Source: Aristolochia californica (taxonomy: Eukaryota > Streptophyta > Magnoliopsida > Piperales > Aristolochiaceae). From it: DNA of 64,000 nt. Below the pieces are notes generated by a model that did no database searches, was not told the origin of the DNA, and saw nothing but the letters and a program-made list of their open reading frames with translations. The position numbers were made by a program, and so were the translations under genes. This document shows positions 1,281 to 51,640 of the stretch, piece after piece. Within the stretch, counting starts at the first letter, position 1. Every line of letters starts with the position of its first letter. The stretch covers positions 24,086,922-24,150,921 of the forward strand of contig JARWKL010000013.1 in assembly GCA_029961685.1 (NCBI GenBank), in the 5' to 3' direction.

Positions 1281-2286
1281 TCGTTAATTTTTTTATAAAG
1301 CTCGGTAGGGAATTACCAGGGCGGGGATCGGCTACCCGAGTCGTAGTCGGATTGTGTCTGGATGGGGCTGCTAGAGATGCTCCCTAAGATGAAGTATAGC
1401 AGTGCCCTTGCCACGTGGAGGAAGTGTTCCTCTCACCTAACAAACCCGACTTACGTTGTTGCATCTGTTGTCATTGTTCGATTGCTCGTGCCATATTCAT
1501 TGCATGAGCTAAATCTGTAGGCATAAGGAGTTCTACCTCTAGCTGTAAATACTCATTGAGACCTATTGTGAATAGGGAGACCTACTGGTCAACCAATACC
1601 CTCTCACCAGCACGAGGCCACTTTTCCTGGAACAGTTTTTTATATTGTTCCACCGAACCAATTCGTCGCAATAGGATTAACTCTCCCAAGGGGTTGTTGT
1701 TGGCGGGAGGTCCAAATCTAACTGTGCATAGATTTTTAAATTCTCCCCAAGTCATCCCTCATCTCTCTTTCTCTACTTTAGTAACCCATAGCATGGCTTC
1801 ATCTGTCATATGGAACGAGGCTAGTTGCACCTTATCCCATTCAGTAGTCCCTTGGTTCAAAAACATTTTTTCACATCTATGCAACCAAATTAAGGGATCA
1901 ACTGAACCATTGAAAGAGGGAAACTCTAACTTGGTGTACCTTGGAACTGTGCCTCCATGTTGGGGTCCTTGGACAACAGTGCGCCCAGACCACTGCTCCC
2001 CTCTTCTGTGATATGGTTGAGCAACCTCTCTCACCTCTGGAGTATGATGTCTCTCTGCCCTCAACTCCGTTAGCATGCTGATGACTCGGCTCATCTCTTC
2101 TTCCAAACCACAAACATTCCCCAACACTGGTTGTGCTGTTTCAAGGTTATCTTCTATCTTTTGTATCCTGATTTGGATTTCTTCATTGCTGATATTATCC
2201 CCCATGTTACCCTGCTCTGATACCAAGTTGTTACGATCCCGGGTCATGGATTGAGTAACACGGCGTGAAACTTGAGACTCTAGCAC
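1281..2286 (-). pseudogene. gypsy Gag (element D), start inside the LTR
   Basis: The N-terminal half (1759-2286) is open. It begins within the LTR, crosses the PBS, has a predicted coiled-coil-like stretch (ISNEEIQIRIQKIEDNLE) and the capsid block LEFPSFNGSVDPLIWLHRCE. The C-terminal half (about 1300-1757) is recognisable in the same strand (YKKLFQEKWPRAGERVLVDQ, then a stop, then LAHAMNMARAIEQ) but has stops. The start used by the virus-like mRNA is uncertain. The methionine in SMTRDRNN, encoded by the last bases of the LTR, is conserved in element A and the solo LTR at 8543-9362; an internal methionine (MGDNISNEE) downstream of the PBS is the alternative. Confidence 0.8.
2214..2225 (-). other. 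primer binding site, element D
   Basis: On the minus strand TGGTATCAGAGC, the standard plant initiator tRNA-Met primer site, lies 3 nt from the LTR end at 2229. It fixes the LTR boundary and the element's orientation. Confidence 0.9.
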
Positions 2287-3120
2287 TCAGAATTTAAGAT
2301 CACTTCATGTCAAGGGTCTGATATGAGTCTTTCTCTTTGACCAGTGCTCGGCCAGGAGGAAAGCTCCTCTTTTGATGGTCCTAACGAGTTGTTGTGATAG
2401 GTAGGATACCCCACAACAATGCTGAGCTTTCTAGAGCAAGCTGCTCCCTTTTCTTGCTCATAGCAAAGAGGGTTTGGCCCTCTTTGTTGCTACTCTAGCT
2501 AAGAGTGCAATCCTTCTTTCTGAATTAACTTGAAACACGAGTTTGGGATAGATTATTACCTCTTCTTTGCTGCTGATATCAGCTCCCACGTTGCACCACG
2601 ATTGCTCAAGATCTGAGGATGAAGATCCTCACTTCTCTGCTCGTTAAGGGAGGAATTGAGGCCCCTCTTGCTGCAGCTGCCGAGAAGGAGGACAGATGTC
2701 CTCTTTGGGCTCGGAAATGGGCAAGAAGCCCCTCTTCTTAGTATGGATGATGATGGATGAAGTTGGGTGAAGATGGATGGCAATGGAGGATGAAGGATAG
2801 GTTGGATTTTTGGAGTAAACCCTAAACTCGAGATCAAGAGGTGATCTCAACCTGTTTACACTAGGTTATTCTAAAATCTCAAAGTTTACCTATTTCATTC
2901 ATTCCTTTCCCTTAAATAGATCACATCATGGAGTATTAGAGTTAGGGTTAAAATAATTCCCCATAATGCCCCTACATATAAAAGTAATTAGAAATAACTC
3001 CTACTTAAAACAATATAAGAAATAAATCCTACTCAAAGTAATATAAGAAATAAATCCTATTGAGTGAGTTGTTGTTGTCTCCTTTATTGTGTGACTCGGT
3101 GTGCTATTGAGTCCACAACA
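2229..3120 (-). repeat. 5' LTR of element D
   Basis: 892 bp, minus orientation, from TGTTGTGGACTCAATAGCAC (at 3120) to GATCGTAACA (at 2229). The inner end abuts the PBS. The outer end is nearly identical to the start of the solo LTR at 8543 and similar to the LTRs of element A. It encodes the first Gag codons. The matching 3' LTR and TSD are outside the window. Confidence 0.88.
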
Positions 3121-38899: not shown

Positions 38900-38904
38900 T
38901 GAAA

Positions 38905-39348
38905 TGTTATGCACACAATAACATTATTATTTTAGTTGTTTTTATTTAATTTACTTTATTTTATTTCAGTTGAGGCCACAAGGGTATTTTTGGAATATTT
39001 TATTTATAGGGGTATTTTTGGAATATTTTAATTTTAGGGGTGTTTTTGTAATATTTTATATTAAACCCTAACAGGGTGAACCCTATTTAAGGGGTAAGAG
39101 TAATGAGAAAGGGGGAATTGAAGTATTAAGAATTAGGGTAACTCTAGCGTAAAGAGGTTTGAGATCACATTCTTGATCTCGAGGTTAGGGGTTTCCTCAA
39201 AAACCCACGTATTCTCTCATCCTTCATTGATCTTCTTCTTCCCCATGCCTTCCTACTATCCCTACAGTAATGCCTGGGAGACCCGTAATCCGTGGCAAAA
39301 TCCCAGATCCTCCCAAAGAATCCTTGTGTCAGATCTGGGACCGTAACA
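38905..39348 (+). repeat. 5' LTR of element B
   Basis: 444 bp, TGTTATGCACACAATAAC to GATCTGGGACCGTAACA. It contains GGGTATTTTTGGAATATTTT repeated twice and ACCCTATTTAAGGGG as a likely TATA zone near 39083. Confidence 0.93.
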
Positions 39349-39350
39349 AC

Positions 39351-39362
39351 TGGTATCAGAGC
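39351..39362 (+). other. primer binding site, element B
   Basis: TGGTATCAGAGC, exact tRNA-Met primer site, 2 nt after the LTR. Confidence 0.93.
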
Positions 39363-39447
39363 AGGAACACAATGAGCTATTCATTTTTCCCAAAAGGATG
39401 GATTATTCTAGACAAGGTATACGATTTAATGGAAAGTATGCAAAGAT

Positions 39448-42400
39448 ATGGGAAAAATACGTGCATCGTTTGAATCTTCCATTGAAATTGTTGCAATTGA
39501 AGTTTCTACAATTCCCATTGAAATTGATGCAATTGAAGTTTCTACAATTCCCATTGAAATTGCTGCAATTGAAGTTTCTACAATTAAGAGGGCTGCCACA
39601 GTCGATGCTGGCTCGGATAGGCAGGAGATTCAAGCAATCAGAGACCTCTCTGTATCTCCGGCGGCGGCGACCTCCGAATTTTGGGATTCAGAAATTCCAA
39701 AAACGGAAGGGTATTCAACATACCCTTCGTCAGAAAATCGAGAATGGGAAATCTCCAAGCAGGAAACTCCAGCGATGGCCCCGTCAAAATTGATTTCCGG
39801 ATCACGAAAATCTGACAAGCAAGACCCTGAACTTCCGAAATCGAAGTCGATATCAACTCCGAAACCAGCCTCAACACTTCCGAAATCAGACGGCGGGACA
39901 TCAGATATTAGGACATTGTTAGGATCCTCACGAGTCATGGATCTTGTCACCCTCCTCTCTTCTCTTCCTCCCATTGCTTGCTTGACGTAGGGATAGATTG
40001 ATGGAGTGATGTAAAGAAGAAATTTGGAAAGGGGATTTGGGGAAAAAGGGGGAGAGCTTGAAGGAGCTCTCAACCTGTTACTCTAATTTACTCTAGGCTA
40101 ATTTGATAATTCAGTAGCTACCTTTCATTAACCTAGCCGTCCCCTTAAATAGGGTTGAGGACGCCAAATACAATTCAGACCCTTGGGTCACTGGTTCAAG
40201 CTAAATAAATTACAAACCAAACCAAACCAAACCAAAATCAATTACATGAAAATTGAAAACCACATTAATTAATTCCTACACCTGCTGGTAACTCGTGATG
40301 CTATTGAGTCCATAACATCACCCCCCTCCTGGAGAAAGCGTTTGTCCTCAAGCTCGAAGGAAGGGTAGAGAAGACGAAATGCTGATTATGGCTCCCATGT
40401 AGTGTCACTGGGGTCTGCATCTGCCCACTATACGAGAATTTCCCAATAGCCTTGAACGTGGCGTGCCTGCAATACTTGAGCTGGAGTAGAAAGGACACGG
40501 CCTTCATGGAGTGGTGGCAGAGGGGTGTGCAGCAAGGGAGAGTCGCCCTGGGCTTCAGTTGGGATACGTGAAATACATTATGTATCTTTGCCTCGGGTGG
40601 TAGCTGCAAGCGGTAGGCCATTGGGCCAATGCGGTCCAACACCTGAAATGGACCATGATATTTCGGAGAAAGCTTGTGGCGCTTGGAGGCAGTCAGTGAT
40701 AGTTGGTGGTAGTGTTGGAGCTTCACACATAATCTCCTGGGGAATAATATACCTCTCAGTGTTTCTTATCATATTAGAACTTCATAGAGTGTTGGGCCTC
40801 CTGGAGATGAGTACGCACCTTAGTGAGCATAGCGTCTCTTTCAGCTAACTCTTGGTCCAAAGTGGCGACTTTGGAAACCCCTGGTTCATAGGATAACAAA
40901 TGAGGTGGATCTCTGCCATAAACTACCCTGAAAGGAGTAGTTCCCAGTGCGTTGTGGTAAGAGGTGTTATAGCAAAATTCTGCCCAGGAAAGCCACTTAA
41001 CCCACGGTTTAGGTGAGTCCCCCAAAAAATAGCGAATATACATTTCGATCGTGCGATTGACAACCTCGGTTTGTCTGTCAGTCTATGGATGATATGCAGA
41101 AGAGAATGCCAATTTGGTGCCATGTAACTTGAATAATTCTTTCCAAAAGGTACTGGTAAAAATGGCATCCCTGTCACTGATAATGGATGCTGGAATCCCG
41201 TGTAATCGGACAATGTGGTCCATAAATAACTGAGCTACATGAGTAGTAGTATAAGGATGCACCAAAGAAATGAAGTGAGCATATTTTGAAAAACGGTCAA
41301 CCACAACGATTATCACGGATTTACCTGATGAAGTTGGAAGGCCATCAATGAAGTCCATGGAAATGTCGGACCAGATTTGAGACGGTAGTTGCATAGGTTG
41401 TAGTAAGCCGGCAGGACTTAAAGATTTGGCCTTGCTTCGTTGACAAATCTGACAAGCAGCTATATAATCAACAATCGTGCTCTTCCCTCCAATAAAATTC
41501 CCGACTTATTCGAAAATATGTTTTCTGTCAACCCTCATGTGTGCTATCATGGAAAGAGGACAGAATGGTGTGAAGAAGTGGGGACGTGTGATGCATAAAA
41601 ATCTTGTTTTTGAATAGGTTAAGACGATCCTGAATCGTCCAATGACTAGCTATTGTCCCTTGCTGAATATCCTGATATAATGAAATAAGTTCTGGATATT
41701 GATGTGTCTCCTCTCGAATAGAATCCAACAAAAGTGAGCATGGGTGGCTGAGAGCATAAACGTGTGGTTCTGGAATGTCCCGACAAGACAAAGCGTCAAC
41801 CCCCAAATTCAAACTGCCTGGCTTATATTGAACTATAAAATCGAAGCCCATGAGTTTACTCAACCAGTGCTGTTGCGGTGATGTGGTGAGGCGTTGCTCA
41901 AGAAGATACTTGAGGCTGCAATGATCTGTAGGAATCAGAAATGGTCATCCCCAGAGATAAGGCCACCAATGTTGGATAGCCTTGGCTAACCCAATCAGTT
42001 CCCTCTCATATGCAGCTAACTTGTCGTGGTGTTGTCCCAACTGGAGGCTGAAATAAGCGATGGGATGTCCCAATTGCTGTAACACTGCACCAATACTTCC
42101 TCCAGATGCATCACATTCCACCACAAAGGATTCATCAAAATCTGGTAGCTGTAGCACAGGCGCTGAGGCTAAGGCCTCCTTTAACTGCTGAAAGGCCTGA
42201 GCCGCTGAGGAAGACCAAGTGAATGCATGTTTCTTGAGAAGGTTGTTGAGTGGTGCTGCTATCTGGCCATAAGTACGGATAAATTTTCTGTAATATCCCT
42301 CTAGGCTCAAAAACCCCCTTAATGCGGTAAGGGAGGTGGGAGGAGGCCAATCTGTGACGGCTTGTATCTTACTCTGGTCAACCTTCACACCCACTACTGA

Positions 42401-45400
42401 TATAACGTGGCCCATATATGCCACTTCTGAAGTGCCCACAGAACATTTGGATTTATTCAAAACCAAATGATGGGAGCATAGAATGGTAAATACCTAATGG
42501 AGGTATTGGAGATGTTCGTCCCAAGTTTTGCTATAGACCAAGATGTCATAAAAAAATACTAACACATATTTCCTTAGAAGTGAGGAAAATACCTCATTCA
42601 TGAGGGCTTGAAAGGTGGAGGGCGCATTGGAGAGACCAAAGGGCATGACAAGGAACTCGAAATGACCATGGGGCGTGAGGAACGCAGTCTTCTCCACATC
42701 TATAGGGTGAACTCTAATTTGATGATAGCCCAATTTCAAATCTAACTTGGTAAAAATGGTAGCACCATGTAACTCATCCAGCAACTCGTTCACCACTGGG
42801 ATGGGGAACTTGTCTTTAATTGTATGCAAATTGAGTTGCCTGTAGTCGACACAAAACCTTCATGATTTATCCTTTTTGCGGACCAGTAAAACAGGGGATG
42901 AGAAGTGAGACCTAACGGGCAGGATAACTCCCTGAGCGAGCATATTTAGGCATTGTCTTTCGATTTCATCTTTCATTATATGTGGGTAACGATAAAGACA
43001 CACCACCACTGGATCGGTTCCCAACTTCAAACGAATGCGGTGATCACAGTGACGCACTGGTGGTAGACCAGTAGGGTCATTAAATAAATCCGCAAATGCT
43101 GTAAGTAATGGAGATAACTTACAATCACCAGTGCTCTGAATCTGGAAAGTGTGAAGTGTGTTGTTATGGTCTTGGGTTAAGTACCTATGTCTTTCGCTCC
43201 TAACAAGCCGGTCTTTTGGGTAGTATTGGCTAGGTGCTTAACATTTGGTATCAGAGTGGGCTCCCACGTCGCAAGTTCGAGTCCCGGGGCACGCAAAGGC
43301 TGGATTAAAATTATTGGTAGGTTCAAAAGGGGTGACCTAGCGGAGAGGGCGACCTGGAGAACTGCGAAGAGGCACTAGGAGTAGGCCACTGCTAGAGTAG
43401 GCCACCGGGTTGGGCTAGTGTCGTTGCGCCACCGTGGTCGTCGGCTCGCGAAGGTGGGGTGTGATGTTATGGTCTTGGGTTAAGTACCTATGTTTTCCGC
43501 TTTAACAGGTCGGTCGTTTGGGTAGTATTGGCTAGGTGCTTAACATGTGTTGGGCATTTGTGCCTTAATACCCTGCAATGTAATCTAGCCCTGTTGTGCA
43601 GTAAATGTCATAGTCCGATCCTGAAAATCCCACAATATAGGGCCTAATAGCTAAAGCCATTTTACCCCAAGCACCAAATCAAATCCTGCTAAAGGAATGA
43701 CCAGTAAGTTAGCCTTAAATGAATTTCCCTCAATAGTAAAAGGGGTGGCTGTGCATAACCCCACACTGGAAATTTTAGCCCCATTGGCCACTGAAACCGA
43801 GAGACCCTTTTGCTATTGGATTTCTAATCCCAATTGTTTCGCTGCAGGCTCATTGATAAAATTATGTGTGCTGCCAGAATCAACTAAAGTAAGTAACTGG
43901 AGATGGTGTAACTTGGCCTTTACCTGCATGGTATTAGAACAACGCAGGCCATGCATGTCATGGAGGGAGAGCTATGGGTCTTGCTATTCCTCTTCAGCAA
44001 TATCAGCTTCAGGAAGCACTTCTGGACATTCTTCTCAAAGTTCTATACTGAATAATCTTTTGCTGGTATGTCCTGGGAGAAATTGTTCATCACAATTAAA
44101 ACAGAGGCCCTTGGCCTTTCTTGCATCCATTTCTTGTTTAGTCAAGAATTTACGTGGAGGATTGGGGGGGGGGGAACTCTTGTAGACTGCTCTGCACGGT
44201 TAGGGGCAGAAGAGCCAAAACGTGGCCCAGGTGCAGTACCCGGTAGTCTATTGGTCCAAAAGGGTTTTCGACCTAATGATTCCCTTAGAACTCTTTGTTT
44301 CTATTCCACAGCCCTGGCATAATTCATGGTTGTTATGCACGCAATAACATTATTATTTTAGTATTTTCTTTAATTTACTTTATTTATTTCAGTTTTAGGC
44401 CACATGGGTATTTTGGAATATTTTATTTATAGGGGTATTTTTGTAATATTTTATCTTAAACCCTAACAGGGTGAACCCTATTTAAGGGGTATGATTAATG
44501 AGAAACAAAAGCATTGAAGTATTAAGAATTAGGTTAAATCTAGTGTAAAGAGGTTAGATCCGAGGTTAGGGTTTTTCTCTAAAACCCACGTATTCTTTCA
44601 TCCTCCATTGATCTTCATCTTCCCTATGTCTTCCTACTACCCCTATGATAATGCTTGGAAGACCTGTAAGCTCAGCTGGCAAGCATGTTTAAAATTTAGT
44701 CAATCCTGAGTCGAATGGACATTTTAGTAGTTATAGAAGCACATGAGCGCTTCATCGAGCAGGTGGTAGGCGGCCAACGTGACCTTGTCCACATCCAACG
44801 TTTGTTGATGATAGAAAAATTGCTCACATTTCGTGAACCAAAGTAAAGGATCCTTTGATCCATCATAGGTAGGAAAATTGAGTTTAAAGTACCTGGGAAC
44901 CGTAGTTGGTCCCTGTGCATGAGCAGCCACAGGAATAGTTTGTGGGCGCAGTGGTGGGGATGGTGGTGGCGTGAAGTGTGAGTGGTGTGCTGCCGGTGGT
45001 TGAGAGTTTGTTGCTGGTGGTGGCGCTGGCGATTGAAGTGCTGCAAGTTGGCGGATGACGGTTTGGAGAGAAGTTTCCAGCGTGTGCAATGAATTATTGA
45101 TGTTAGTAATTTCAGCACCTCGATGCGTGGATCTTTGTTGAAGATCTGAAAGAGCTTGACGTATGTCCTCTGGAGAAGAGGAGTCACCGAGGGTGGACCT
45201 GTCTGATACCACGTTGTTAGAATCCTCACGAGCCATGGATCTTGTCACCCTCCTCTCTTCTCTTCCTTCCATTGCTTGCTTGATGTAGGGATAGATTGAT
45301 GGAGTGATGTAAAGAAGAAATTCGGAAAGGGGATTTGGGGAAAAAGGGGGAGAGCTTGAAGGAGCTCTCGACCTGTTACTCTAATTTACTCTAGGCTAAT

Positions 45401-45757
45401 TTGATAATTCAATCGCTACCTTTCATTAACCTAGCCGTCCCCTTAGATAGGGTTGAGGATGTCAAATACAATTCAGACCCTCGGGTCACTAGTTCAAGCC
45501 AAATAAATTGTAAACCAAACCAAACCAAAATCAATTACAAAAAATTAAAAACCACATTAATTAATTCCTACGCCTGCTGGTAACTTGTGATGCTATTGAG
45601 TCCATAACAGACATCGGACGGGTTTTCTGCCAAATCGTCGAATCCGACTCCGGGGACCTTGCAAATCTCCGAGAAGGACCCCGGAAAGCCAAAATCGGAG
45701 AGATATTCTGCTCCACCCTCGTCGGCGTTGGAAATATGTCACGCGCAAATATCCTGA
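39448..45757 (+). CDS. element B ORF1, interrupted by chromovirus A
   Basis: Two exon-like parts (39448-39911 and 45610-45757) are one open frame of 203 codons once A and one TSD copy are ignored; the frame is preserved across the junction. It begins with three 12-residue repeats of the form [12 protein letters not shown] encoded by a 36-bp tandem repeat (about 39479-39586). It continues as a polar Ser/Pro/Lys/Glu-rich sequence with several KSD and PKS words. No zinc finger or known domain. It could be a relic of a gag start or sequence acquired with the other cargo. The methionine at 39448 is the first in frame; function unknown. Confidence 0.55.
39917..40317 (-). repeat. 3' LTR of chromovirus A
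   Basis: 401 bp; minus TGTTATGGACTCAATAGCAT to GGATCCTAACA. The PPT on the minus strand is CAGGAGGGGGGTGA. The LTR sequence contains the Gag start codons ([11 protein letters not shown]), unused in this copy. Confidence 0.94.
40301..40773 (-). pseudogene. integrase C-terminus and chromodomain (chromovirus A)
   Basis: Minus-strand words [40 protein letters not shown], then in a shifted frame the chromodomain [16 protein letters not shown], followed by [20 protein letters not shown]. The tail continues through the PPT into the LTR before stopping. Chromodomains bind histone methyl marks and guide integration. Frameshifts at about 40510 and 40400. Confidence 0.82.
40774..41500 (-). pseudogene. 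gypsy integrase core (chromovirus A)
   Basis: [20 protein letters not shown] (first Asp), [35 protein letters not shown] (second Asp), [14 protein letters not shown], a stop, then [19 protein letters not shown] (Glu) and [17 protein letters not shown]. The DDE triad is complete, but the stop between HP and TD truncates it. Zinc-finger part near 41440-41500 ([17 protein letters not shown]). Confidence 0.88.
41501..42490 (-). pseudogene. gypsy RNase H and RT end (chromovirus A)
   Basis: Minus: [78 protein letters not shown] (first RNase H Asp), [40 protein letters not shown] stop at about 41944, then [14 protein letters not shown] and [29 protein letters not shown]. Confidence 0.87.
42491..43156 (-). 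pseudogene. gypsy reverse transcriptase (chromovirus A)
   Basis: [33 protein letters not shown], a break, [58 protein letters not shown], then [19 protein letters not shown]. The catalytic box reads FFYDIL where D (element D) has FFDDIL: one catalytic aspartate is replaced by tyrosine, so this RT is dead independently of the stops. The TRIM lies just upstream. Confidence 0.9.
43162..43545 (+). mobile_element. TRIM in chromovirus A
   Basis: 384 bp. Direct terminal repeats of 82 bp (43162-43243) and 81 bp (43465-43545), TGTTATGGTCTTGGGTTAAG to GTGCTTAACA. PBS TGGTATCAGAG at 43246-43256, PPT AAGGTGGGGTGTGA just before the right repeat, TSD TGTGT (43157-43161, 43546-43550). No coding capacity. 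After the PBS the sequence continues into GCAAGTTCGAGTCCCGG, a B-box-like word (see findings). Confidence 0.95.
43551..44330 (-). pseudogene. gag end, zinc knuckle and protease (chromovirus A)
   Basis: Minus-strand words: MNYARAVE (end of capsid helix region), [20 protein letters not shown], the knuckle [15 protein letters not shown] (last Cys missing), [40 protein letters not shown] with the protease catalytic Asp, [20 protein letters not shown] and [13 protein letters not shown]. Two stops between knuckle and protease. The plus-strand ORF over 43697-44185 is its shadow. Confidence 0.85.
44331..44669 (+). repeat. truncated B-type LTR inside chromovirus A
   Basis: From TGTTATGCACGCAATAAC to about GGAAGACCTGTAA, matching the B LTRs except that the last 75-80 bp are gone. 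It is followed by about 55 bp of filler and then the broken gag frame. The missing gag middle shows that a deletion removed the LTR end and part of gag together. So another B-family copy inserted in A. Confidence 0.88.
44724..45272 (-). pseudogene. gypsy Gag N-terminus (chromovirus A), start in LTR
   Basis: 182 codons open. Starts in the 5' LTR with [17 protein letters not shown], crosses the PBS, then [20 protein letters not shown], a Pro/His-rich spacer and the capsid block [20 protein letters not shown] and [16 protein letters not shown]. It ends at a stop where the deletion linked with the B-type LTR begins. The proposed start is either the MEGREE methionine at 45272 or MAREDSNN; both are inside the LTR. 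Confidence 0.85.
45201..45211 (-). other. primer binding site, chromovirus A
   Basis: Minus TGGTATCAGAC, 3 nt from the LTR end; one mismatch at the end relative to the tRNA-Met site. Confidence 0.87.
45215..45609 (-). repeat. 5' LTR of chromovirus A
   Basis: 395 bp; pairs with 39917-40317 and carries the functional position of the LTR-encoded Gag start. Confidence 0.94.
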
Positions 45758-46477
45758 GCTGGGCAATGGCACCCAGAAATTCTGATATCAAACCTCCCCT
45801 GCTCAGGGCAAGCCACACTTAGTCCCAAACAGGAGAAAGAAAATTTTCCGGCCACTATGCCGACCTGGAAATATTTTCGAGAGCCCTCTGTCTCAGAAAA
45901 TTTTCATGCGGCGAAGCCTCCAAGGGCTGCTATTCACCACCGGAGAAGGGGGAGACTCTGTCGGCTTTGTTGAACAAATTTTCGCTCCACCTCGGCCTCG
46001 AAAGTTCAGTGGGGAACCATCTTCATCGCAATTAGGGGTAAGCTTCGGAAACTCCCTCGATTTTTAGATCAACACATGTCTTTCAGGGCGTTGATGTGGC
46101 TCAAAGGGGCTGAGCAGCAGCAACGCTGCTCAAAAATTAGAGACGAATGTTCTCTGTGTCATGACGCAGAGAATCCATGGCCAATTGATGGAATTTCGAA
46201 TTGGGGGTATGTAGTGCGAGTTGAACTTTTTTGGAGGATGCCGGGATCTATTGGAAAATTTTTTTGGGGACCTCTGAAATTTTTTTTCGAGTGGCTTGGT
46301 TGTTTTGTGGATGATTTGGATGCTGCTCGGGCCTTGTTCATGCTGAATGGGATGTCTTCGATTGTGGTGAAGGAATACAATAGCACTGTGGCGGTTTTGG
46401 GTTATTTTTGGGGAAATTGTGTACTAAATGGGCTGTATTCATTGGTTCTTGGTGAATTTTTTACTTAGATCTCTTTC
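45758..46477 (+). other. element B interior, unassigned, with a 130-codon ORF
   Basis: Contains a plus-strand ORF at 46076-46468 (130 codons: starts MSFRALMWLKGAEQQQ, has FVDDLDAARALFMLNGMSS and ends VLGEFFT). I recognise no family. It lies directly before the xylose isomerase fragment and may be its 5' UTR, another captured piece, or old element sequence. Confidence 0.35.
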
Positions 46478-47034
46478 ATGTGCAAAAATTTGGAGGCTAG
46501 AAAAATTCTTCTGTTACTCTGTTTGGATTTGTCTTTCCTGGCCGTTATTGCAGTAGGGCCACATACGTGTCCTGCTAATGTTGATGCAAGATGTGATGAT
46601 GGATTTTCGGATGAATGGGAAGGCGGATTTCCCCCTAATGTTCCCCAAATTAAGTTTGAGGGTCCTACTAGCACCCTCTTGCATTTACATGGTATACTGA
46701 TGATGAAGTGCTCCTTGGGAACAAAATGAAAGATTGGATGAGATTTAGTGTGGCATTGTCTCATTGCTGCTACTACAACAAGCTTTCTACTCAAATATGA
46801 TCTTTCAGAGGAACTCAAACTCAACTGTGCGTGTAACCATGCTACACTATCCAAAACACAGTTATTTCCAGGAACTTGAAACTGCAAGGATCAGTGGGTT
46901 GCTTGGAAACATTGAGGCAACCACCGACGCACCAGATTGGTGGGGATACTGATCAATTCCTCGTGGTCATCGACGAGGCAACTCTGCTTGTGCGTAATGT
47001 GATGCTGAAATTATTTTGTGGAGGGCTCTATTTC
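46478..47034 (+). pseudogene. captured xylose isomerase fragment (element B)
   Basis: Plant xylose isomerase converts D-xylose to D-xylulose and has a signal-anchor N-terminus. Seen here: a hydrophobic N-terminus KILLLLCLDLSFLAVIAVG, PHTCPANVDARC, EWEGGFPPNVPQIKFEGPTS, then in a shifted frame LLGNKMKDWMRFSVAL. A long central segment is missing. Then FLLKYDLSEELKLNCACNHA, ELETARISGLLGNIEATT and GGDTDQFLVVIDEATLLV. These correspond in order to the start and the later part of the family; the catalytic middle is lost. At least four frame changes; no introns visible. Sense to element B. Confidence 0.85.
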
Positions 47035-47049
47035 ACTGTTGATGAGCAC

Positions 47050-47376
47050 AGTGGCTTGGTAGTTCTGCATGATGTGAGGGCCATATGGCTACGCAATCCC
47101 AAAGAGGTTACTGCTGAAGAGTCCTACAATTTTTACCATTCTTCTGCAAAGGACTTTGGTGATGAAATGCCATTGGCTTGGAGTCACCTAATTGCTGAAG
47201 GTGATGTAGTGTTCAAAGTTGTCCTGTTTGTTCCTCCTCAGGCTTCACCTGATTTGTATGAGAGTTACTACACTACCAACAAAGCCAATTTGAAGTTGTA
47301 TGGGCAAGTCTTCCTCTCGAATGAATTTGATGAGCTTCTTCCAAAATATTTAAGCTTTTTGAAGGGTTTGGAATCA
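47050..47376 (+). pseudogene. captured endoplasmin (HSP90.7/GRP94) middle-domain fragment
   Basis: About 100 codons in one open frame: VLHDVRAIWLRNPKEVTAEE, FYHSSAKDFGDEMPLAWSHL, AEGDVVFKVVLFVPPQASPD, LYESYYTTNKANLKLYGQVF and SNEFDELLPKYLSFLKGLES. The PKEVT, AWSH.TAEGDVEFK and LYESYY..NKANLKLYVRRVF blocks are those of the ER-resident HSP90, not the cytosolic form. The VRRVF core has become GQVF (two residues lost). ATPase and C-terminal domains are absent. It is joined directly to the xylose isomerase piece. Confidence 0.88.
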
Positions 47377-47844
47377 AATATTGGGCATGCCATGATAGTC
47401 AGATTCTGCTACACCAGGAATGCTGGGGAAGTACTGTGTGTCTTTAAGGAGAGGGCAAAACAATAGGGGAGGAAACAGGAGGAAGATGCTGGTTTTGCAG
47501 CCCTTAAGCTCTTCCACAACTTGTGGGGTGTTGCTGCTTTGACAGTGCAGAAATGGACTCAACTGACCACAATAGACCCCAGAAAACTTATTGATCCATC
47601 GCTAGGCCAGCAACATAATCATGTGTATTGGAAGTATGGTAGTTTTCCCTATTGTTCCAGCGCAATCCACTGCAATCCTAGATTGTACCACGCTGTTATG
47701 ACATTGCAGAAAACAGTCCTACCACTTGCAAGAACTCTTCTATGGGCAGGTGCTGGAGTTGGTCACTCTGGGATTGGCATAGTGCAAAATGGCATAGTCA
47801 AGCTTTTTGACAGTTTGGAACATCCTGAGGATGACCACGCAGAA
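47377..47844 (+). other. element B interior, unassigned coding-like stretch
   Basis: Continues open to a stop at 47464, then the frame from about 47470 holds EDAGFAALKLFHNLWGVAAL, DPRKLIDPSLGQ and RTLLWAGAGVGHSGIGIVQN. It has the look of decayed protein-coding DNA but I cannot name the source. It could be a fourth captured gene. Confidence 0.35.
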
Positions 47845-48480
47845 CTAAATGTGATTGACTTTCAAATCGGGTGTCCTATGAAGGACACAAAGGACCCAAC
47901 AGAATGTGATGATACAGTTATCACTTCTCTTGGATTTGATAATCAAAACATGGAAAAATGGATGGGCGACTCAAATACTGTTGCTGACAATCCAGTGCTG
48001 CACAAAGCGCACGATGCTCAAGTTGGTAAGAGTTCCAGGGGTTATTTTACCATTTTGCCTACACTTCTTATTCATAATAGCCAGTGTCTAGGGACGTTAG
48101 AGGAACTGTAATGAAGGCTAGTTGTGATGGGTTTGAGGAAACTTTTGAAGTTATTGTTGGTTTGGGTAATGATATTCAGCACAATGAATGCTTGAGCATC
48201 AATGGGGGTTGTTGGCGAGATAAAATGGTGACTTTAACAACTTTCATGGACACCTTCCGTGGTAGAGTCAGTGAGACTCCTTGGCTAGAAGGAGTGCAAT
48301 TCAGTGGGGATGGTTATAGCCATTGTGTAGCAAGTGGGCTTGGATGATGCAAGCTAAACAATGGAGGCTATTGGCATGCTGCTCCTGATGGACATTCCGT
48401 CTCAGCTTGTCAGGAGGCTGAGGGCAGTAAAGGCCCATGTCCAGCTAGATTCAGGGATGCATGGGGGTGTGCACATGTTC
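47845..48480 (+). pseudogene. captured vacuolar sorting receptor fragment (element B)
   Basis: Vacuolar sorting receptors (BP80 type) carry cargo from Golgi to prevacuole. Seen: VIDFQIGCPMKDTKDPTECD, NPVLHKAHDAQVGKSSRGYF, TILPTLLIHNSQCLGTLEE, a frameshift near 48105, ASCDGFEETFEVIVGLGND, NECLSINGGCWRDK, DTFRGRVSETPWLEGVQFSG, DGYSHCVASG and NNGGYWHAAPDGHS. This covers the central lumenal domain and the first EGF-like repeats. Several EGF cysteines are changed (CEC to SET; GGCW to GGYW), so the protein would not fold. No introns visible. Sense to element B. Confidence 0.88.
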
Positions 48481-48938
48481 TTGATAGGGACGAGAGGTTT
48501 CACCAAAGGTATAGCTTGGAATTGGTGGATCTTGACAAAGCAGGTGACCTCACTGTTGTTGACATCATGCTCAGTGTTACAACCATGATACTTTCGTGGA
48601 GTATGCGGGGCAATTGGCTGAACATGGACTGGGTCCAAAGAATGAGGTTATCAGGGATAGGTTATTTTGTACCAATGTGGCAAATGTTGAATCAGTAGTT
48701 ACCAGTTTGGCGAAGGTAACAATTCCACTTGTTGTTTGTTTTCTTCCCGTATTGGGGTATGCTACAACAAGTGCAATGAGAAAATAATAATAATAATAAT
48801 AATAATAATAGCTCCGGTTTTGGGAGTCCAGCGGGCGAACATAGCGATCGCGGATGCTACTCGGCCACAGGTGAAGACGTTGGCATACAGACACTGCTTC
48901 CGAGCTTGAGGAGAAGCTCGTTCTTCCAGGGGGTGTAA
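48481..48938 (+). other. element B 3' interior, unassigned, (AAT)n and PPT
   Basis: 48490-48780 again looks like decayed coding DNA (VDLDKAGDLTVVDIMLSV, then in another frame EYAGQLAEHGLGPKNEVIRD and TNVANVESVVTSLAK); source not recognised. (AAT)n microsatellite at about 48786-48811. 48880-48938 may be the last codons of a gypsy pol (ELEEKLVLPGGV), ending in the PPT CCAGGGGGTGTAA. Confidence 0.4.
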
Positions 48939-49352
48939 TGTTATGCACGCAATAACATTATTATTTTAGTTATTTTTATTTAATTTACTTTATTTTATTT
49001 CAGTTTAGGCCACAAGGGTATTTTTGGAATATTTTATTTATAGGGGTATTTTTGGAATATTTTATATTAAATCCTAACAGGGTGAACCCTATTTAAGGGG
49101 TAAGAATAATGAGAAAAGGAAAATTGAAGTATTAAGAATTAGGTTAAATCTAGCGTAAAGAGGCTTGAGATCACCTTCTTGATCTCGAGGTTAGGGTTTT
49201 CCTAAAAAACCCACGTATTCTCTCATCCTCCATTGGTCTTCGTCTTTCCCATGTCTTCCTATTATCCCTACAGTAATGCCTGGGAGACCTGTAACCCGTG
49301 GCAGATCCCAGATCCTCCCAAATAATCTTGTATCAGATCCGGGACCGTAACA
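48939..49352 (+). repeat. 3' LTR of element B
   Basis: 414 bp, TGTTATGCACGCAATAAC to ATCCGGGACCGTAACA; pairs with 38905-39348; TSD TGAAA follows. Confidence 0.94.
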
Positions 49353-49357
49353 TGAAA

Positions 49358-50399: not shown

Positions 50400-51640
50400 T
50401 CTTGCCGCAGAAAACCTTCGTTTTAGATACATGCTGAGTTGAGAGGGCCCCGATATCGTCCGTTACGTCCATTCAAACATTTCTAAAAACCGTCGGCAAC
50501 CTTACGCAGTGTCTCGACGCGCAAGATCATCAGACCTCTGGCGAGTCTTGGGGAACTGGACGCACTGTGTCTAGGATCCCTCGTGTTCCTCGGGGTGGTA
50601 CTCACCGCGCCGGGCAGGGTGCCTTCGGAAACATGTGCTGAGGGGACCGACTGTTCACCCCGACCAGCGTCTCGCGATCATCCCAATGCACCACCGGGAA
50701 AAGGTCACCTGGATGAATCCTTTGCCGGACGGATCTTCGAGTAGTGAAAACGTAGCGTTTGAGAGGAAGGAAAAATTCGCATTAGATGTTGATTGCGTAT
50801 TTTCTGGGGAGTTCTGGTACGGAAGCATCCGGTGGATGCTTTCATTCTTTTGTTTGGGTTTACTGGCTTATGAACAGCTTCTTGCCCAGATCTATTTCGT
50901 CGGCCTGCGGGCTGCGGCCTCCGTGATTGACAGAGACTTCAGCATCGACGTACTATTAGAAGAAATGCTGGGGGATATATGAGACGCACTCCTGCACTAT
51001 CTCCTTGGCGTCCTTGGATATCTTCGCGTTCGCCGGCAGCGCCTTCTTCATGATCCAACTCACGTTATCGATCGGAAGGATCCTGTCCTACTCCCTCGGC
51101 GAGAACTAGCTGTTAGCGTTGCTGTTATTCTGTTCCCCCGATTCGTTGTCCGAGTCTGCCATTCGGAAACATTACGGAGGTCAATCAGGAAGACTCTCTG
51201 TTGGATTTTCCAAGCTGTCTTTGTTATCGCTGTGATCCCGTGCTGTTTGGGAGCCAGTGCTGCGGGGAAGATGATATTTTTGGAAGGTCTATTCTGGAGT
51301 GAAGTTTTTTCGTCGGAAAGTTCTTCTCTATTCGACGCCGAGAAGATGAAGATGGTTGCCGTTTCTGGAAGCAGCTGCTCTCTGGTTTATTCCGGAAAGT
51401 TTCCTCCCGAAGTTTCTTTGTTTTCCACTAGTTCGGCGCAGGGAAGAAGCACTTTTTCCGCTGTGAGTCCCGTGCTTCTCGGTTGCCTTTCCGGCGCCAG
51501 ATGAGTTTCCGTTTTGGGAGGAAGAACATGGCGTCTCGAGGGGAAAGTTTCCTTCCGAAGACGATCTCTGTTTCCATTTGCGAGAGGAACAAAAATTTGA
51601 TATTTCACGAGAGAGGAAGAAGACGAGCACTGTTGATTTA
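50400..51640 (+). other. GC-rich cargo-like zone of element I
   Basis: Base composition is markedly richer in GC than the surroundings. An ORF at 50635-50982 contains EKVTWMNPLPDGSSSS, FALDVDCVFSGEFWYGSIRW, a hydrophobic stretch MLSFFCLGLLAYEQLLAQIY and FVGLRAAASVIDRDFSIDVL; next to it another frame reads [20 protein letters not shown]. 51232-51504 is also open (IPCCLGASAAGKMIFLEG). No family recognised; the residues look partly membrane-like. Element J has a different GC-rich zone here. Confidence 0.4.

Follow-up and report, generated by a model that had tools for sequence, protein, structure and literature searches.

How a long terminal repeat (LTR) retrotransposon comes to hold pieces of several unrelated host genes instead of gag and pol is the question raised by element B (38905-49352, plus strand), which lies in a 64,000-nucleotide (nt) stretch of the Aristolochia californica genome (the window). 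Our best explanation, to which we assign a probability of roughly 0.8, is that B belongs to a non-autonomous, probably chromovirus-derived LTR family that captures host messenger RNAs (mRNAs) by template switching, swaps this cargo among its members and moves in trans.

The ends of B, described in an earlier sequence-only reading of the window, were borne out by sequence comparison and blastn: paired direct LTRs with TG..CA-type ends, a 5-nt target-site duplication (TSD; TGAAA, 38900-38904 and 49353-49357), a primer-binding site (PBS) and a polypurine tract. The 5' LTR (38905-39348, plus strand; 444 nt) contains one extra 28-nt tandem unit compared to the 3' LTR (48939-49352, plus strand; 414 nt), and the pair differs by 26 substitutions over 414 aligned sites with 3 gaps (K 0.066), which would date the insertion to about 2.5-4.7 million years (My) ago at assumed substitution rates. 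The PBS (TGGTATCAGAGC, 39351-39362, plus strand) starts 2 nt past the 5' LTR and is presumably of the initiator-Met (iMet) tRNA type, while the purine tract CCAGGGGGTGTAA ends at 48938, abutting the 3' LTR. The framework of the interior, all on the plus strand, consists of a leader (39349-39911) that varies among sister elements and carries a 36-nt tandem repeat (39479-39585), a 5' backbone module termed “up” (45615-46338), parts of which were found in all sister subfamilies whose 5' half could be read, and a 3' backbone common to the sisters (48811-48938), which ends in the purine tract. The claim that gag-pol was lost outside chromovirus A, an element nested in B (39917-45609, minus strand; see below), also held, as seven chromovirus and copia open reading frame (ORF) queries found neither gag nor pol in the two interior parts of B (E 1e-4). 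An Rfam search gave no match at the gathering threshold. The copy is decayed, with several frame changes and stops.

Sense-strand pieces of three host genes had been recognised in this interior, namely xylose isomerase (XI), endoplasmin and a vacuolar sorting receptor (VSR), and each of them found matches in protein-database, Pfam or PDB searches. Following a stretch typical of B-type copies (46339-46466), XI piece 1 (46467-46765) comprises residues 1-98 and approximately 11 nt before the ATG, and XI piece 2 (46766-47010) comprises residues 294 to ~373; 195 internal codons are missing between residues 98 and 294, and the frame changes between blocks. The best protein match of the XI piece was the XI of A. 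californica itself (P0001; E 1.0e-67, next 9.6e-49), in a search that scored 7996 candidates and returned 543 proteins; the top 120 are either named xylose isomerase or unnamed proteins of similar make-up. Since the XI piece by itself had no match in Pfam, PDB or NCBIfam, it is identified by the protein-database search and by comparison with the host gene. The endoplasmin (HSP90B) piece (47053-47373; aligned part 47062-47373, ~104 residues) matched Pfam HSP90 (2.3e-30) and PDB endoplasmin (2.6e-19), and the VSR piece (47851-48510; VSR1 residues 282-485, with a frame change near 48100) matched Pfam VSR_TRX (9.5e-16) and PDB VSR1 over residues 282-365 (1.5e-18), 367-445 (7.6e-26) and, weakly, 449-485 (0.25). 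All of these pieces lie on the plus strand, as do the segments around them.

Contrary to the earlier reading, not all of the pieces are joined directly to each other. In addition to the gap within XI, 42 nt of non-host backbone corresponding to the 3' end of the “up” module (47011-47052) separate XI from endoplasmin, recurring in L010, L016 and L029-L033 at 82-86% (loci are given as L numbers), and a 477-nt segment present in B-type copies (P4, 47374-47850) separates endoplasmin from the VSR piece. P4 is open in the frame of its neighbours except for one TAG in B. After the VSR piece come 272 nt (P5, 48511-48782) and an A-rich edge (48783-48810), which is (AAT)n in B and a run of 8-18 A at the same place in L011, L014, L024 and L025. 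Neither P4 nor P5 had a convincing homologue in the protein database, PDB, Pfam or NCBIfam, although one of the protein-database searches was probably swamped by low-complexity words from a serine-rich leader frame. As P5 has a 235-nt match of 66% to L028 that adjoins a tail there, part of it may be backbone.

A probe for the XI start (46339-46520) was found at 18 places in the assembly searched (659.6 Mb, 521 contigs), nearly full length and at 85-100% identity (40 of 41 candidates scored); these places span 46339-46466 plus the XI start, and two more (C13, C46) match 46339-46466 without XI. At the 5' capture edge of XI there is a 4-nt overlap (AGAT, 46467-46470): similarity of the two XI-less places to the probe ends at base 132, and that of the host gene begins at base 129. 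The idea that 46339-46468 is the 5' untranslated region of XI was not supported, since similarity to host XI starts only at 46467, although part of it might be a separate untranslated exon. B-type XI cargo could be read at 16 places (B, L011, L014, L024, L025, L026, L037, L040, L041, L042, L043, L044, L046, L047, L049 and L051). Endoplasmin follows XI at 15 of them (not L042), and P4 plus VSR follow endoplasmin at 13 (not L026, L042 and L043, which are interrupted or cut). The genomic copies thus gave no indication of the chance similarity that would have undone the earlier reading.

A search with the 5' LTR of B gave 43 matches (40 of 3074 first-look candidates scored), and 20 stretches around the top matches were taken. 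Ten sisters have two full or nearly full LTRs (L009, L010, L011, L012, L014, L015, L017, L019, L020 and L025); L013 (apparently a local tandem duplication), L022 and L028 (one full LTR plus fragments) and the rest, with single LTRs, were kept outside this count. LTR-pair K in the ten ranges from 0.038 to 0.075, or about 1.5-5.3 My at two assumed rates. Six have a perfect 5-nt TSD (L010, L011, L012, L017, L019 and L025), the TSDs of L009 and L014 agree at 4 of 5 bases, and none was seen at the element ends of L015 and L020; a PBS-like sequence follows the 3' LTR of L015. Similar to B, none of the 10 interiors held gag and pol between its LTRs, the same kind of gag/pol ORF queries giving no pol match at E 1e-4, and pol matches were found in six other loci (L016, L018, L021, L022, L023 and L026), within nested-looking elements. 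The sisters keep related LTRs, the PBS, the 5' backbone module and a 3' tail of ~130 nt or shorter with its purine tract. At L013 (665-1843), two B-family LTRs are separated by 736 nt and share their flanks on either side, which looks like such a duplication.

Under these related LTRs the sisters carry other multi-gene cargo, so that the proposed comparison of copies shows B to be one decayed member of a cargo-swapping family. L017 and L020 hold HSP90 (7.8e-34, 5.8e-34), a purple acid phosphatase (PDB diphosphonucleotide phosphatase, 6.6e-57) and AUG8/QWRF (Pfam 4.6e-23, PDB 1.5e-14); phosphatase and AUG8 are fused in one frame of 427 amino acids (aa), with the residues HRI common to both alignments, and an amine-oxidase-like part of this frame was recognised by eye only. 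L009 and L019/L027 hold an M20 amidohydrolase (L009 8.7e-5, L019 3.8e-14) and a prolidase-type M24 (3.8e-34, 5.4e-35) with its N-terminal domain, L009 having in addition an alpha-galactosidase (2.2e-18) in the same 490-aa frame. L010 and L016 carry an E(z) piece with a CXC domain (PDB EZH2 3.4e-24, Pfam 4.9e-6) in a 689-aa frame, along with a kinesin-light-chain-like TPR part seen by eye only, and L015 carries a GH38 alpha-mannosidase (1.3e-14, 4e-9) with weak matches below the Pfam cut-off (BRCT-like, 1.1e-4; TPR-like, 0.0078). XI recurs as residues ~191-475, or part of them, in L029-L033, with an amidohydrolase stretch in L029, L030, L031 and L033 (in L031 as one 454-aa frame of M20, 1.2e-10, and XI, 84% over 242 residues), and as residues 1-109 followed by 394-480 in L036, L039, L048 and L054, with an RRM piece also in L036 and L039 (1.1e-7, 1.7e-7). 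Pfam batches of 10, 8, 7, 8 and 6 proteins yielded 2, 1 (P0001 itself), 6, 6 and 5 matched proteins at E 0.01. All identified pieces are in sense frames, and an antisense control gave 0 of 10 Pfam matches (10 of the 28 antisense ORFs of at least 100 aa in seven interiors, each interior's longest included).

The modules recombine. The 5' backbone module and 3' tail pieces recur across subfamilies, and leaders and cargo are reshuffled: the first 1556 nt of L009 match L017 (88.6%) and the remainder matches L019 (90.1%), and L016 joins a B-type leader to L010-type cargo. B-type and L017-type endoplasmin pieces span different parts, and XI is present in three forms, which indicates repeated capture, or recutting, of identical host messages. 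About 28 nt before XI are common to the B type and the C478 cluster, as are 5 fixed differences from the host (out of 15 and 10), so those two are probably not independent. A 93-nt piece of 84% identity occurs in two otherwise different cargo sets (L010 3213-3305 and L017 2019-2110, interior positions).

The form in which cargo was taken up could be read from XI, the host gene of which lies on C46 and has exons that read as P0001 (five of the seven exon peptides were found letter for letter in P0001, and the other two cross split codons). Its introns lie after codons 24, 62 and 87, at ~307/308, in codon 325, at ~353 and after codon 376. Borders were GT..AG where both sides were available, with edges taken first from gene-model variants and then from the host gene, and the border at 307/308 was located from its acceptor together with the gap 273-307 shared by the gene models. 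The six introns that fall within captured stretches are missing from B-type cargo, those after codons 24, 62 and 87 from piece 1 and those at ~307/308, 325 and ~353 from piece 2, which argues that XI was derived from spliced mRNA; since the breakpoints at 98 and 294 are inside exons, exon skipping is not the cause of the internal gap. Across the 16 copies, 5.5-9.6% of sites differ from host XI, and 19 differences are fixed over 350 sites in five exons (3 at the first, 7 at the second and 9 at the third codon position). The host gene (C46 ~1343-1440 kb; L059 and L060 in part) lies near several partial or further copies, and another XI copy is found on C57 near 23.95 Mb.

A sequence of events that would produce such a family begins with element RNA packaged together with host mRNAs in the particles of an autonomous chromovirus. 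Reverse transcriptase (RT) would switch template between element RNA and host mRNA, sometimes several times, before returning to the element, and the chimeric cDNA with intact ends would integrate; later switching between co-packaged element RNAs would recombine the cargo sets. B itself would have inserted, decayed without detectable selection and then been interrupted by chromovirus A. Template switching in particles accounts for the intact ends, sense orientation, lost introns, mid-exon breaks, multi-gene cargo and recombinants, and passages of PMC1950507 describe it as a route to complex LTR elements.

Several points weigh against this explanation. The autonomous helper is a putative one, suggested by LTR ends and PBS, and the overlaps at capture edges (AGAT at XI, HRI at phosphatase/AUG8) are few and could be due to chance. 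The pieces may also have been put together in the genome first and captured afterwards. The intron comparison covers a single host gene, XI. For VSR, a genome search gave 56 matches, 17 of them B-type places at 83% or more; the remaining 39, at 47-77%, are mixed, many being contiguous and open, and include one decayed B-type copy along with genes and, perhaps, pieces in other elements. Finally, the sample was drawn from the top LTR matches (40 of 3074 candidates scored), so it need not show how typical cargo-bearing copies are.

Within the template-switching explanation, we tentatively raise the possibility, on balance doubtful, that the particles of this family sample the host transcriptome serially, taking in mRNAs often enough for whole multi-gene cargo sets to turn over faster than the LTRs diverge. 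It is suggested by L014 and L019, whose cargo is unrelated and whose 5' LTRs differ by K 0.063, against a K of 0.051 and 0.038 within each element's own LTR pair. Many of the captured genes we take to be secretory-pathway genes (XI, endoplasmin, VSR, phosphatase, alpha-galactosidase, alpha-mannosidase and amidohydrolase), which would be consistent with switching between templates where mRNAs collect at the endoplasmic reticulum.

An alternative explanation is that processed pseudogenes made by long interspersed nuclear elements (LINEs) landed in LTR elements and were then carried along. The runs of 8-18 A that border the cargo on its 3' side in L011, L014, L024 and L025, and those ~136-177 nt before the 3' LTR in L009, L012 and L019, are what such an origin might leave behind. 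However, it has to explain several partial messages in series, all in sense orientation, and the A-run of L009 comes after an alpha-galactosidase piece whose match is confined to the beginning of the C-terminal domain; as this piece seems to end inside the coding region, the run is probably not the tail of that message. We therefore consider this origin unlikely and keep entry of cargo by its poly(A) tail as a lead only. A-runs ~127-177 nt before the 3' LTR lie at or near the border between cargo and tail (L009 4543-4558, L012, L019 and B 48783-48810), and this recurrence marks a possible switch point.

Capture at the DNA level, with gene pieces introduced into an LTR element by ectopic repair or by recombination, would suit XI pieces that are broken within exons and lack internal parts, as well as the clustering of XI gene copies on one scaffold. 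Against this stand the six missing introns, the sense orientation of all identified pieces and stretches of E(z), M24 and XI of ~217-290 residues that are readable in one frame, which together make such an origin very unlikely.

Equally improbable is that the chimeric frames encode proteins expressed by the element or have been recruited as genes under selection, even though the longest sense frame measures 244-689 aa per interior compared to 128-199 aa antisense (seven interiors) and some junctions are in frame, namely in L024, where XI piece 2, endoplasmin, P4 and VSR form a single open frame of 537 aa, and in L031 (amidohydrolase-XI, 454 aa). Long sense and short antisense frames are expected from recent capture of coding sequence. 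Other junctions are out of frame, and we make no claim on the frequency of in-frame ones because the pieces were found via long frames, which biases the count. Between copies, omega was 0.51-1.28 in 13 comparisons without third-position excess (smallest p 0.18), substitutions being evenly spread over codon positions, and other copies of the compared frames carry 0-7 stops. The 5' “up” module gave the same picture, with no third-position excess in 19 comparisons (smallest p 0.11) on protein-guided alignments that favour amino-acid matches, and no coding constraint was detected on it. Since the between-copy substitutions look neutral, there is no sign that the chimeric frames, which reach 689 aa, are under selection, and neither a maintained reading frame nor the useful fusion products envisaged earlier found support in this pattern. 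That the similarities reflect chance or misassembly is close to negligible, as nothing was found in its favour, E-values reach 1e-67, independent copies have their own duplications and the A. californica assembly is HiFi-based according to passages of PMC11334207.

The probable chromovirus affinity of the family draws on the LTR end, PBS and partial LTR identity, as no RT remains in B for classification. The nested chromovirus A has interrupted frames, LTRs at 39917-40317 and ~45215-45609 (20 of 394 sites differ, K 0.053; located by sequence comparison) and the TSD GACAT at 39912-39916 and 45610-45614, and it shares a weak match with the 3' tail of B (79.5% over 44 nt, E 0.015). A B-family LTR fragment without its final 60 nt lies within A (44331-44669; 78% to the 5' LTR and 86% to the 3' LTR of B). 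A separate chromovirus LTR at ~2229-3120 of the window (minus strand, borders by eye) is 80.6% identical to the B LTR over 98 nt. The LTR end GGGATCGTAACA and the TGGTATCAGAGC PBS of this chromovirus both resemble those of B, and we regard it as a candidate for the helper lineage on the strength of these sequence likenesses. Just downstream of B, two neighbouring sense frames (135 and 173 aa) occupy 50575-51504.

Known systems share parts of this organisation. Large retrotransposon derivatives (LARDs) and terminal-repeat retrotransposons in miniature (TRIMs) keep LTRs, PBS and polypurine tract without gag-pol and are mobilised in trans. The B family keeps the same parts; however, its interiors hold long host coding stretches instead of non-coding sequence, and a lack of coding capacity does not describe sister frames of up to 689 aa with host domains, although no selection was detected on them. 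Pack-MULEs and gene-carrying Helitrons are DNA elements that take up genomic DNA with introns. Similar to them, the B family carries and shuffles fragments of several host genes; in contrast to them, it is an RNA element with intron-free XI pieces. Host-gene fragments in LTR elements are known from maize, rice and sorghum, many of those in rice being pseudogenes (passages of PMC2774510 and PMC3726574). A maize survey reported 425 elements with gene fragments and, under its search conditions, no single one that combined fragments of two or more standard nuclear genes (PMC2774510), whereas here most of the cargo sets seen hold at least two genes, some partners being weakly supported.

The maize element Bs1, with pieces of three host genes (passages of the review PMC13317346), was rightly named as the precedent, and multi-gene capture by a single LTR element is known chiefly from it. 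B conforms to the Bs1 type in holding sense, intron-free pieces of several unrelated host genes (introns having been checked for XI only). What differs is that a whole family is seen here, in which related LTRs enclose no fewer than seven different cargo sets, and that the genes and the host lineage are others; given the different cargo and plant lineage, descent of the B family from Bs1 is unlikely. Literature searches and passages of open-licence papers showed no comparable family, and a term search of the A. fimbriata genome paper did not find “gene capture”. The wider meaning is that a plant genome mixes and spreads pieces of its own genes via virus-like jumping genes, and that mobile elements can harbour open frames of 400-690 aa with enzyme domains and without signs of selection, a warning for annotation. 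A many-copy family with interchangeable cargo offers many datable capture and swap events in one genome with at least one parent gene extant, such that mRNA uptake, template-switch sites and the frequency of fused frames could become measurable. Compared to Bs1 and the gene-bearing LTR elements of grasses, the kind of element is already known; what is new is that it forms a whole family, the cargo of which often combines several genes and is swapped between members.

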